Source of the DNA: a virus
Virus record (IMG/VR): IMGVR_UViG_3300035703_000116
Location: 1-56,500 of that record
Reading direction: 5' to 3' (one strand)
Length of the DNA: 56,500 bases
The notes under the pieces: model-generated
Told to the model about the DNA's origin: nothing
The model's database searches: none
Seen by the model: the letters and a program-made list of their open reading frames with translations, nothing else
Position numbers and translations under genes: made by a program
Shown here: piece after piece, positions 18,466-42,371 of the stretch
Layout of the letters: each line of letters opens with the position of its first letter
Position numbering within the stretch: position 1 is the stretch's first letter

Positions 18466-18554
18466 TGATCTGCGGTTGTGAGTGAACGGCGAGGCCTTCG
18501 GCGTCGCTTGCTTTTGATCTTAAGCGATAGGTTGCGACTTTGTAGGTTCTGACT

Positions 18555-19160
18555 GATAAGAGTATTTTATAGCTATACTTTTACATTTAACTAACTATAA
18601 AGTATAAAGTAACAATTCAACGCAAATACAAATACTTAGCAAATAGCAAATAATACTATTACTTTGCAAATACTTGTTAATTACAAACAAACAGCATTTG
18701 CTAATTAACTTTATAGTTTACAAATACCTGGAGAATACAAATAACTAGCATTTGCTATTTAACATTTAGCAATCGCTAACAAATAATAACATTTAACAAA
18801 TAGCTGTAATTACAAATAACTAACATTTGCAAAATAATAATTACATTTAACAAATACTATCTATTACAAACAAACAGCATTTGCTAATTAACAAATAGCA
18901 ATTGTTAATAAATAATTGCATTTAACAAATAACTGTAATTAACAAATACCTGGACATTACAAATAAATACTATTAACAAATAATTGCAAATAATAAATAA
19001 TTGCAAATAATAAATCTTTTTCAGTTAATAAATAAATTGCAATAGTTAATAAATAAACATGCGAATAAATAAATGTAGCAAATAAATCTAATTGCACATA
19101 AATGCAACGCAACAAGCATTGCATTTATTTCTGCGATGAATAAATGTATGCGTGAATGAA
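18555..19160 (+). repeat. AT-rich degenerate repeat tract, candidate origin
   Basis: About 600 bases without a credible gene. G+C is 23% in 18841-18900 and 12% in 18961-19020, and A greatly exceeds T on the plus strand. The recurrent unit is (T)AACAAATA, with ACAAATACCTGGA twice, GCATTTGC(T) several times, and one exact 30-bp repeat at 18680-18709 and 18863-18892. The next gene but one is a winged-helix protein. The pattern fits an iteron or partition region, but no function is shown. Confidence 0.65.
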
Positions 19161-19456: not shown

Positions 19457-19858
19457 TTAACTAAAGGCGTCAGTGAATGTTTTTACAAGATGTCCCCATT
19501 TTTGCTTGCGCCCAACAGAAAATAAGTACGGATTGATTAAGTAATATTTGTCACCACTTGATTCGCAAACACTGGCGACAACAAAATTAGTTTTTAATCT
19601 TTTCAGGCTTGCAGAAAACGCAGTGGGATTAAAACCAATTTCCTCTGATAGCACTTTAGCTGTAAAACGAATCTTTCCTGTTTTTGCATCGCATAATGAC
19701 ATCAATGCAAATAAAACTGTAAAATCTCTAGGCTGCAATTTTCTTTCTTTTATGTATGAAAAATAATTCCTCGCCTCCAACATATGAAACATGGCGAACG
19801 AATGAAATCCCTCTGGGTCAGGGATCTGAGAACGGTTTTCATTTTCAGCTCTAGTCAT
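19457..19858 (-). CDS. Winged-helix DNA-binding protein, replication-initiator-like
   Basis: 133 residues from the ATG at 19858, the only start clearly downstream of the promoter at 19881-19909. Residues about 40-110 form a winged helix: KLQPRDFTVLFALMSL, then KVLSEEIGFNPTAFSASLKR as the helix-turn-helix, and KYYLINPYLFSVGRKQKW as the wing. The last motif recalls RepL-type plasmid initiators, where INPxxF follows the wing. With the AT-rich repeats just downstream, replication initiation or transcriptional control are both possible. Confidence 0.6.
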   Translation of the reverse strand: MTRAENENRSQIPDPEGFHSFAMFHMLEARNYFSYIKERKLQPRDFTVLFALMSLCDAKTGKIRFTAKVLSEEIGFNPTAFSASLKRLKTNFVVASVCESSGDKYYLINPYLFSVGRKQKWGHLVKTFTDAFS

Positions 19859-19880
19859 ACCAATGGATCTGGGCATCTCA

Positions 19881-19930
19881 AATATAACTGACTTTAAGAA
19901 ACGGGTCAAGGAAACCAATCCCTGACAGGG
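19881..19930 (-). promoter_or_regulatory. Promoter with upstream palindrome for winged-helix gene
   Basis: Minus strand: TTGACC (19909-19904), 17-base spacer, TATATT (19886-19881). Just upstream, CCCTGTCAGGG (19920-19930) is an 11-base palindrome that could be an operator. Confidence 0.65.
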
Positions 19931-27823: not shown

Positions 27824-27879
27824 TGTAGTAAAAGTAAAAAAACAAATCAAAACGAAATCAAAATGAAATCAAAATGAAA

Positions 27880-28065
27880 TCAGAATGGGTTGTCCCAGGA
27901 ATTTGCCTGACGATCAGTAATCTCGCCATCACGATGCAACTGATCTATGAATTGCACAAATGCTTGGCGCTTTGCGCAAATGTCGTCAGCATAATTTGGG
28001 GCGCGAAACTTAATGTGATACTCCCATTCATCCTTGAAAATAGCAATCGCTTCTTGTTTTGTCAT
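27880..28065 (-). CDS. Hypothetical protein, first gene of P5 operon
   Basis: 61 residues from the ATG at 28065. Helical: TKQEAIAIFKDEWEYHIKFR, then KRQAFVQFIDQLHRDGEITD and the end RQANSWDNPF. Similar short proteins ending WxNPF occur in many phages. No Shine-Dalgarno. Confidence 0.65.
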   Translation of the reverse strand: MTKQEAIAIFKDEWEYHIKFRAPNYADDICAKRQAFVQFIDQLHRDGEITDRQANSWDNPF

Positions 28066-36803: not shown

Positions 36804-37208
36804 ATGCACAAAGCAATGAGCGCTCCTCACGAATCGTTTGGGCCGAATGAACTCACAGAGCCACAGCAAGAGCTTTACAAATGGATCTGCGCCTACATAG
36901 AAAAAACTGGGCACTCGCCTGCTATCAGGGAAATGATGCGAGCGATGAACCTAAAGTCCCCTGCGCCAATTCAAAGCAGACTAAAATTCCTAGAGAAAAA
37001 AGGATGGATCGAAAAAAGAGAAAAAAATGGCAAGCCTGGAATCTGGCCAACGGCACCAGAAAAAGGTGCATCTATTTTCATAAAAAGAGAAGTACTATTA
37101 GCTGCAACAATGACGGCGCCAGATGATAAAAATATCCAAGAATGGATTAATGAATTGATTCAATTTGCAGCAAAAGAAAAAGCTGGAGAGTTTTCAAAAT
37201 GCACATGA
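36804..37208 (+). CDS. LexA-like winged-helix regulator (no protease domain)
   Basis: 134 residues. LTEPQQELYKWICAYIEKTG, HSPAIREMMRAMNLKSPAPI and RLKFLEKKGWIEKREK match the LexA DNA-binding domain (LT..Q.....I..YI...G..P..REI...L.LKSP...Q..L..LE.KG.I). The C-terminal autoprotease is absent; a short helical tail follows, so it would not self-cleave like LexA. The dyad over its own promoter suggests autorepression. Start may instead be the ATG at 36816. Confidence 0.75.
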   Translation: MHKAMSAPHESFGPNELTEPQQELYKWICAYIEKTGHSPAIREMMRAMNLKSPAPIQSRLKFLEKKGWIEKREKNGKPGIWPTAPEKGASIFIKREVLLAATMTAPDDKNIQEWINELIQFAAKEKAGEFSKCT

Positions 37209-37727: not shown

Positions 37728-38634
37728 TGACGACAGCTTTTTTGAAAGCAAGGCGCGAATTGCAGAGAGACAACCCTTCACTGCATTGCCAAATTGGATC
37801 ATCAGAAAACGTGCAGAAGATGCAAAATGGCTGAGCTGTGCTGAATTTTCAATTTTAGTCACACTGCAGTTTTTTGCAAATGGCGCAGGAATTGATTCGT
37901 CTGTTTTTCCAAGTTACAACACAATTGCAATGTATTCAGGCGTATCAAGAAGGTCTGCAATTGATTGCATTGATTCCCTTATGAGCAAAAAGCTCGTCAA
38001 GAAAGAGTCGAGAAAAAACAAAGACGGTCAGCAATCGAACGTTTACAGATTGATGATTTGGAGTGATAGCGAGCCCGTTCACGAGCCTGGGGGTGGTGCA
38101 GAATCTGCACTGGGGGTAGTGCAGGATTTGCACTGGGGTGGTGCAGGATTTGCACCCGAACAAGAACCAATGAACAAGAAAAGAAAAGAAATCCCCCCTG
38201 TATCCCCCCAGCGACCTCCTGCGCCGCCCACACCCGCCACAGACACGCCTTCACCCGCTTCTGGTACCAAGAGGGTCAAAGCGACTCAGAGCAGCGTTCC
38301 AGACGATCTCAGGCCCCTCTCAGAGCTGATCTGCAGCTTCTTCAACGATCACAAAGCAGGGGCGAAGACGCAACGAGCTTTTGAGGGATTGATTTTGCAA
38401 CTAAGGAAAATCTTGCAAGATAAAAGCGGTGGTATGCAGCATGTAAAAAAGCAACTGCAGATCGCTATCGAGAAATCGCAAATGGGCGAGAAAAAATGGA
38501 GTTCGATTACTTACGAAAATTGGGAGCGCTTTGGAAAACAAAAAACTCCTGCATGGCAAATCAACAACAGACCCAGCACGCAAACTGTCACAACAATTTT
38601 TGAAGAAGACGCAGCAAGCGACTTGCAATTCTGA
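37717..38634 (+). CDS. Replication initiator, lambda O/DnaD-like organisation
   Basis: 305 residues from the ATG at 37717, fixed by GGAGG 6 bases upstream. Residues about 20-115 form a winged helix (FTALPNWIIRKRAEDAKWLS, NTIAMYSGVSRRSAIDCIDS, LMSKKLVKKESRKNKDGQQS), as in phage initiators that bind iterons. A Pro-rich linker (about 155-185) leads to a C-terminal domain (LSELICSFFNDHKAGAKTQR, then YENWERFG), likely the helicase-loading part. The DNA between the two halves carries three iteron-like repeats, the layout of lambda gene O. The helicase gene follows. Confidence 0.75.
   Translation: MLSDDDSFFESKARIAERQPFTALPNWIIRKRAEDAKWLSCAEFSILVTLQFFANGAGIDSSVFPSYNTIAMYSGVSRRSAIDCIDSLMSKKLVKKESRKNKDGQQSNVYRLMIWSDSEPVHEPGGGAESALGVVQDLHWGGAGFAPEQEPMNKKRKEIPPVSPQRPPAPPTPATDTPSPASGTKRVKATQSSVPDDLRPLSELICSFFNDHKAGAKTQRAFEGLILQLRKILQDKSGGMQHVKKQLQIAIEKSQMGEKKWSSITYENWERFGKQKTPAWQINNRPSTQTVTTIFEEDAASDLQF
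38088..38155 (+). repeat. Three iteron-like repeats inside initiator gene, candidate origin
   Basis: Units at 38088-38110, 38111-38133 and 38134-38155 share TGGGG(G)T(G/A)GTGCAG and ATTTGCAC or ATCTGCAC; each contains the dyad GTGCA-N5-TGCAC. The 23/22-base period is not a multiple of three, so each copy is read in a different frame. The repeat is therefore kept as DNA, not as protein. Confidence 0.75.
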
Positions 38635-38675
38635 AATACGTGCTACAATCTGCAAACTCTCGCACTCAGAACAAC

Positions 38676-40094
38676 ATGACAACGCTCAGCATTGAAGACT
38701 TTGAAACTCAGCAGGACTCGATTGAAATAGAAAAACACTTTCTTGCCGCCGCCTACAACCATCTTTGTTTTGGGTTTGGCGAACAAGATTGGATTGATAA
38801 ATTCATGGATCTTCCTAAAGGGCGCGAGATATTTTCTGACGCACTCAACAAAAGCATGTTCGATTGCTTGCAAGAAGAACTACTAACTTTCCAGGATGCG
38901 CCGACAAACGAAATTACTGTTTCGACTCGCCTTAGAAAGTTAGTTGAATGCGATGCAGCAACAATTGACAATTACATTGATGAGATCGTTTCACGCCCCG
39001 TAGAAAAAGATCTTGATGTCTGGAAGAACAAAATTATCCCTATCTGGCATTTTCATCACTCACGCTCGCTTGTCAAAGATCATTTAAGGAATTCGCTGGA
39101 CATTGTAGAAAGAAGCTGCAATATACAAGAATCTCAAGTTGCGCTTTCTTATGTGCTAAATGCTGCGCAGCTTATTGAGGGCGTAGAAACACAAAAAGAT
39201 GAGATACATCCCTTTGTCGCCGCTAAGGAAATGCTGCTTGGCCCGAAGCAGGAAAATCGAGTCCTACGCACCCGTTTCGGCTTCCTGAACAGCGCCCTGG
39301 GCGGTGGCCTGAACCATCCCACACTTGGGACGGATGGACGTCTGATCGTGGTTGCAGGACGCCCCGGCAGTGGCAAATCCACCTGGGCCATGAACCTGGC
39401 TCTCGATGTCGCCACAAAAGGGTGCAAGGTGCTTTTTTACACGCTTGAAATGTCAGACAAAGAAGTTTGTCAGCGCATGTTGTCGTGTCTTGATTATTTG
39501 ATGTGCTTAGAAAAAGGTGGAACACCTCTTAGCTATGGGCACATCATCAGGCAAATTAAAGATGAAGAGCAGGAAGAAAGAATTCGCTCAATTCCTATCG
39601 AACGCATCGCCGACAACTTTATTTTCACAAATACATACAACGTCTCGCCAACTCAAGTCGCAACAAAAATCAAAACAGAAAAGCGCAGAAACAAAGACCT
39701 CTCCTTGGTAATCATTGATTATTTGACGCTGATGGATCTTGATTCAGATTCGACAAAAGCTGAGACACGAGCGCTTGCAATTGGCGCTGCAACACGAAAG
39801 CTAAAAACTGTTGCACTGCAAACAGGTGTTGACATTCTCGCCGTTTGTCAATTGAACAGAGGTGTTGAATCGAGAAATGACAAAAAACCAATGCTTTCTG
39901 ATCTTCGTGAATCTGGGCGCATCGAAGAAGACGCAGACATGGTGATCATGAACTATTGGCCCTGGTATTACGACAAGAACGAGGACACAATGCGTTATGA
40001 GTACGCCGTTGTTAAAAACAGAAAGGGCGCAACAGGAACATGCGAGATCTCCTTCGCTAAAGAATTTTATGCAATGACGGAGCGTGCAGAGTGA
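38676..40094 (+). CDS. Replicative DNA helicase, DnaB type
   Basis: 472 residues from the ATG at 38676. Walker A GRPGSGKS (228-235), VLFYTLEMSDKEV, Walker B LVIIDYLTLMD (about 344-354), DILAVCQLNRGVE and LRESGRIEEDADMVI are the RecA-fold helicase motifs. The N-terminal domain (1-170) is helical as in DnaB. It would unwind phage DNA after loading by the upstream initiator. The DNA around Walker A (39241-39420) is 62% G+C against about 39% in its flanks. Its stop overlaps the next start (GTGA). Confidence 0.92.
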   Translation: MTTLSIEDFETQQDSIEIEKHFLAAAYNHLCFGFGEQDWIDKFMDLPKGREIFSDALNKSMFDCLQEELLTFQDAPTNEITVSTRLRKLVECDAATIDNYIDEIVSRPVEKDLDVWKNKIIPIWHFHHSRSLVKDHLRNSLDIVERSCNIQESQVALSYVLNAAQLIEGVETQKDEIHPFVAAKEMLLGPKQENRVLRTRFGFLNSALGGGLNHPTLGTDGRLIVVAGRPGSGKSTWAMNLALDVATKGCKVLFYTLEMSDKEVCQRMLSCLDYLMCLEKGGTPLSYGHIIRQIKDEEQEERIRSIPIERIADNFIFTNTYNVSPTQVATKIKTEKRRNKDLSLVIIDYLTLMDLDSDSTKAETRALAIGAATRKLKTVALQTGVDILAVCQLNRGVESRNDKKPMLSDLRESGRIEEDADMVIMNYWPWYYDKNEDTMRYEYAVVKNRKGATGTCEISFAKEFYAMTERAE

Positions 40095-42235: not shown

Positions 42236-42371
42236 ACTCGATCCACCGGGATACAATGACACTTTTATCGAAATTTATGAGCATCCATACGTAAAACCGG
42301 GGGCAGACAAAGAAGAAAAAGCAAAGGAGAAAAAGAAAAAGAAAAAGCTTGGGCGCAATGAGAAAGCTTAA
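42168..42371 (+). CDS. Small Lys-rich protein
   Basis: 67 residues, overlapping the end of the PcfJ-like gene by 68 bases in another frame. SPAPNWVSIFTLHPELDPPG, then a Lys-rich tail. Not recognised; the codon content of the last part looks coding. Confidence 0.5.
   Translation: MNSDYPKISPAPNWVSIFTLHPELDPPGYNDTFIEIYEHPYVKPGADKEEKAKEKKKKKKLGRNEKA

Follow-up and report, generated by a model that had tools for sequence, protein, structure and literature searches.

Does a cluster of short inverted repeats in the middle of a phage initiator gene mark the replication origin of that phage, an arrangement that is textbook for lambda? The question is raised by IMG/VR virus record IMGVR_UViG_3300035703_000116, of which positions 1 to 56,500 were analysed (56,500 nucleotides, hereafter the window). 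The original prediction, made from the letters and their open reading frames, had noted three GTGCA-N5-TGCAC dyads in mid-gene with a unit of 22-23 bases, and had proposed a likely origin. Three exact copies are indeed present in the initiator ORF (Table 1); the measured pitches are 23 and 22, with a repeat unit of 23 nt, and the array lies at 41% of the gene, with the winged helix on one side and a disordered linker on the other. As argued below, it is very likely that these repeats are the initiator-binding iterons of a phage replication origin situated inside the initiator gene, as in lambda.

Table 1. Features of the initiator locus, in window coordinates.
Feature	Position	Strand	Sequence or basis
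Replication initiator gene, 305 aa	37717-38634	+	ORF; PHROG; AlphaFold2 model
Recognition helix, codons 78-90	37948-37986	+	AlphaFold2 model
R79 codon (position r)	37951-37953		covaries with iteron half-site
D83 codon (position r+4)	37963-37965		covaries with iteron half-site
Iteron 1	38096-38110	.	GTGCAGAATCTGCAC; exact GTGCA-N5-TGCAC dyad
Iteron 2	38119-38133	.	GTGCAGGATTTGCAC; exact GTGCA-N5-TGCAC dyad
Iteron 3	38141-38155	.	GTGCAGGATTTGCAC; exact GTGCA-N5-TGCAC dyad
Probable unwinding element; coding strand rich in A, poor in T and G	38156-38192	+	sequence; tentative for the window taken alone
DnaB-type replicative helicase gene (next gene)	38640-40094	+	Pfam DnaB_C E 1e-56; PHROG 19 E 1e-55

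A chance origin of the array is excluded. When all possible 5-N5-5 dyads were considered, the window contained one case, this array, in which the same half-site occurs three times without overlap inside 80 bp, and 0 of 500 second-order Markov windows contained any; this non-overlapping count replaced a laxer test that also counted overlapping dyads and gave 10/300. The GTGCA array was kept, at the same place and with the same spacing, in all four relatives found when viral contigs were searched with the N-domain only, the motif being unused (L240 is the same contig as L011), and the array of L239 is identical to that of the window. In an alignment of five sequences, none of the 30 dyad arm bases was variable, against 152 of 801 elsewhere in the gene (Fisher p=0.003), and the same held at third codon positions (0/11 in the arms, 97/267 elsewhere; p=0.01). 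The window copies occupy phases 1,0,1, so that one frame serves both the first and the third copy (GAESAL, GAGFAP) and a different one the second (VVQDLH). The peptides originally listed agree with the ORF translation; the statement that the repeats are read in three frames is true of more distant relatives and of lambda O, but for the window gene it has to be reduced to two. Early in the initiator gene, at 37811-37825, there is also a one-mismatch dyad (GTGCAGAAGATGCAA), present in L239, absent from L241 and possibly due to chance. An Rfam microRNA-family match at 37821-37880 was discarded as far below its cut-off.

The AlphaFold2 model divides the initiator into a winged helix (residues ~26-112, pLDDT mostly >90), a disordered linker (~121-194, mostly <60) and a helical C-terminal part (~196-274, low-confidence). 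Since the iterons and the tract beside them encode only the disordered linker, any frame would be tolerated. The protein matches PHROGs 8540, 270, 678 and 391, annotated 'replication initiation (O-like)', with E from 5e-14 (phrog_8540) to 3e-8, and phrog_270 and phrog_678 are matched by 39 of 39 aligned family members. With Pfam it scores 19.8 bits against HTH_36 (cut-off 25) and 21.5 bits against DnaD_N (cut-off 27), models which are matched at E<=0.01 by 38 and 24 of the 39 aligned members; by profile, the DnaD N-domain is its best solved relative (E 4e-5). A Foldseek search of the model against the PDB returned general winged helices only (best E 2e-3). Pfam Phage_rep_O (PF04492) gave no match in the window protein and a weak one (E 0.004) in a single member of the 39, and no plasmid Rep domain was among the Pfam matches. 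The upstream gene at 36804-37208 encodes a LexA-type DNA-binding domain (Pfam E 5e-21) with no LexA protease part seen, and is a possible phage repressor.

Such arrays recur widely. Two GTGCA dyads 3-30 bp apart were found in at least 120 stretches of viral contigs, compared with 15 for the anagram control GCATG; all figures from the dyad-array scans are minimum values, counted among the matches listed. A profile that was built up from the winged helix of the window initiator, with the arrays masked, and first trained on GTGCA owners matched the array-bearing ORF in 85 of 124 viral clusters and in 54 of 106 three-copy GTGCA clusters from bacterial genomes (among the matches listed), while 0 of 15 anagram-control clusters lay inside a profile-matched ORF. 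The recurrent arrays occupy the middle of the gene, at a median of 0.40 of the ORF, and their initiators have the same winged helix; the hosts of the profile-positive genome loci, which are prophages or phages, span at least 11 named phyla, Pseudomonadota and Bacillota foremost. Among the matches listed, about one third of the viral GTGCA clusters and about half of both the GTGAC clusters and the three-copy bacterial GTGCA clusters lacked a recognised initiator ORF; some of these clusters are simple repeats. In one Holophagales assembly (L150, L160, L191, L207), long arrays of 42-bp period with the GTGCA dyad occur on many contigs with no recognised initiator ORF, and may represent either an unrelated repeat family or a protein repeat. 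Elsewhere the array lies just beyond the 3' end of a short initiator ORF (L032 at 2561-2639, L035, L174, L304 and L329), a natural separation of origin and coding sequence.

The claim that conservation acts on the DNA was supported across 71 initiators less than 50% identical to one another. Their iteron spacings show no preference among the three codon phases (59/54/61). More than one frame is used in 48 of the 71 arrays; in 14, belonging to some clades, all copies are in frame 1. The spacings cluster at 17, 21-23, 31-33 and 42-45, as would be expected if the sites are placed by helical turns and not by codons.

The half-site itself is not fixed in this family. From 50,697 phage records, 24 phage loci were chosen by protein similarity alone. 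Most of them have dyad arrays in the corresponding position, and in several the half-site is a different one in the same 5-N5-5 layout: GTGCA/GTGAA in SfV and ST64B, GTGAC in the E. coli K-12 phage mEp044 and in D186, GTGACA in PMBT6, and TGCCA-like in RothC and ZF40. The HTH_36/DnaD_N-type 'replication protein O' of SfV, ST64B, mEp044, ZF40 and similar phages shares the winged-helix family and the array position of the window initiator but differs in half-site type. No significant dyad array was detected in a few of the 24 loci (MED4 cyanophages, C. difficile AR1074-1), and the public annotations of the 24 do not give iterons.

This variety allows the half-site to be compared with the recognition helix, in which r denotes a near-invariant Arg (R79 in the window) and r+4 the residue four positions later (D83). 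Among initiators dereplicated at 60% and matched by the final profile, counted among the matches listed, Arg is present at r+4 in 90 of 95 whose half-site ends in C and in none of 106 whose half-site ends in A. By class, the counts among these matches are 32/33 for GTGAC, 16/19 for GTGCC and 42/43 for GTGTC, against 0/75 for GTGCA and 0/31 for GTGAA; an earlier GTGAC scan had given Arg in 30 of 31 owners listed. The r+4 outcome for GTGAC was predicted in writing, from the helix alignment, before that scan was made. The GTGAA and GTGCC scans showed that Arg at r+4 tracks a C in the fifth half-site position irrespective of the fourth base, and the r+4 outcome for GTGTC was likewise written down ahead of its scan. 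Mutual information with the half-site is 0.90 bit at r+4 and 0.30 at the next best column. The same written prediction also had GTGTC owners retaining Arg at r, and in this it failed, with Arg in 11 of 43 and mostly Ser (for example L632, L640 and L645). Since most GTGTC owners have Ser there, position r needs a second rule, and from the sequences its residue seems to follow half-site position 4, being mostly Ser when that base is T. The TGCCA owners, nearly one clade, have Ser or Thr at r in 59 of 60 cases among the matches listed.

Shared descent was addressed with a tree built without r and r+4, on which the half-site changed at least 24 times. In independent pairs on supported branches, Arg went in the same direction in 9.9 of 10 on average (sign test p=0.002); a larger tree with 50 half-site changes had few supported branches and yielded 4 pairs (p=0.125). 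Non-overlapping cross-class pairs with 45-74% identity numbered 26; in each of them Arg was on the C side only, and r+4 was the sole column that differed in every pair. An even closer pair, at 85% identity, consists of L326, with GTGAC and Arg, and L069, with GTGCA and Asn. Judged by these alignments, the site and the DNA-reading helix change together across hundreds of unrelated phages. In the AlphaFold2 model, R79 lies close to where the recognition helix begins and D83 follows it by one helical turn, which is the geometry needed for reading neighbouring bases, and an Arg at r+4 facing the guanine opposite C5 would be the simplest chemistry. The covariation argues strongly for binding of the array by the initiator, and we therefore consider that the protein very probably binds its in-gene sites.

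Plasmid origins and lambda are known to have repeated unwinding elements next to their iterons (PMC10797057). Directly downstream of the window array, the A-rich tract contains three GAAC units, at 38158, 38164 and 38172, and in the 71 sequences of the family the coding strand at this place has an A content of 0.42 and a T content of 0.20. Since codon-shuffled k-mer enrichment gave modest signals only (TGAAC, ATAAC), autocorrelation was used, and it detected downstream direct repeats at p<=0.02 in 15 of the 71 sequences against 1.4 expected, with the strongest lags at 12-13. The same test gave 3 and 4 sequences in the upstream and far flanks, and the 12-13-base direct repeats occur only on the downstream side of the array. 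The tract with its direct repeats probably corresponds to an unwinding element.

The proposed likeness to lambda gene O is upheld by the layout. In the lambda record, gene O contains four iterons between 0.39 and 0.48 of its length, with spacings of 20, 24 and 23, in frames 0,2,2,1 and followed by an A-rich strand. The window initiator gene likewise has dyad iterons in its middle part, in more than one frame, with the A-rich tract on their 3' side. The two systems differ in that the lambda iterons are 18-mers of an ATCCCTC-N4-GAGGGA-like type, that lambda O belongs to Pfam Phage_rep_O whereas the window initiator falls outside that family, and that lambda encodes a helicase loader (P) where the window phage has a DnaB-type helicase instead. 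In lambda and the Stx phages the iterons and AT-rich tract in mid gene O are bound by O, and in lambda the in-gene array is the proven origin; in Stx phage P27, synonymous changes to the iterons abolished plasmid replication (PMC7466680). The RK2 and F plasmid origins share with the window direct double-stranded iterons beside a repeated unwinding element, which in RK2 consists of 13-mers with strand-specific Rep binding (PMC10797057), but differ in that the window origin would be coding sequence and no plasmid Rep domain was matched. The GC skew of the window has no clear turn at 38 kb. The best reading is that the window array is a lambda-type in-gene origin built on a different, HTH_36/DnaD_N-like, initiator family with a readable specificity code. 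The original suggestion of a likely origin is supported in this way by inference, chiefly through the half-site and helix covariation.

Covariation speaks to the specificity of binding and not to its outcome, and a winged helix that reads a dyad would also suit a repressor. The initiator might accordingly bind the array as an operator or as a copy-number or immunity device, through autoregulation or titration of an incoming phage, with replication starting elsewhere. We regard this as improbable, since the middle of a gene is an odd place for an operator, the A-rich tract with its directional repeats lies on one side only, the helicase gene adjoins, and the layout exactly parallels that of lambda, where the in-gene array is the origin.

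It is equally improbable that the main origin is instead the intergenic region at 18540-19160, the alternative to which the original prediction had pointed. This is a very AT-rich stretch of about 600 bp in which ACAAATA/TTAACAAATA units recur many times, ~17 bp apart. The many repeats and a GC content of 27% over 18.5-19.5 kb would suit an origin, and a relative, the contig of L241 (locus L747), conserves the region at 82%. However, its neighbours are the terminase small-subunit gene on one side and a terminase-like ORF (called from sequence) on the other, no replication gene was recognised beside it, there is no sign that the initiator reads it, and a packaging or regulatory role would suit it equally; it may be a packaging site, a regulator or a second origin. 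The idea that a second replicon, of plasmid type, lies at 19 kb was rejected, the small ORF at 19460-19918 being without a replication-family match. The window also has short tandem arrays at 27839-27887 and 42308-42348, built of 11-bp (AAATCAAAATG-like) and 14-bp units. For the in-gene dyads, a role played through RNA or peptide, as mRNA hairpins or a repeated linker peptide, is extremely improbable: each dyad could form a 5-6 bp hairpin and the copies of some clades share one frame, but the peptides differ with frame, the arms follow the recognition helix of the protein with no drift by compensation, some arrays sit just outside the gene, and no Rfam family was found.

Under the preferred reading of an in-gene origin, the winged helix would bind each 15-bp dyad, probably as a dimer with one recognition helix per half-site, and GTGCA would be read by R79 together with the residue at position 83. 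Neighbouring dyads, about two helical turns apart, would then bring the bound initiators into a nucleoprotein complex, which may open the A-rich tract just downstream and so allow the phage's own DnaB-type helicase, encoded by the next gene, to be loaded there.

In the open-access full-text literature, the scope of our search (subscription papers lay outside it), we found no description of an in-gene origin for this initiator family. The arrangement appears to be general, beyond lambda, for a different and very widespread family. We think it likely that the phage initiators of a very large, cross-phylum class each have the site they bind within their own gene and that two helix positions constitute a readable code, in which Arg at r+4 would read C5 and Arg or Ser at r would go with position 4. 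If this is true, origin specificity would be predictable from one gene, and with it which phages share or exclude each other's origins. Since each gene holds both the reader (the recognition helix) and the text (the iterons), thousands of natural protein-site pairs are available, and these may allow tests of how initiator specificity evolves, the prediction of origins in uncultured phages and the marking of orthogonal origins.
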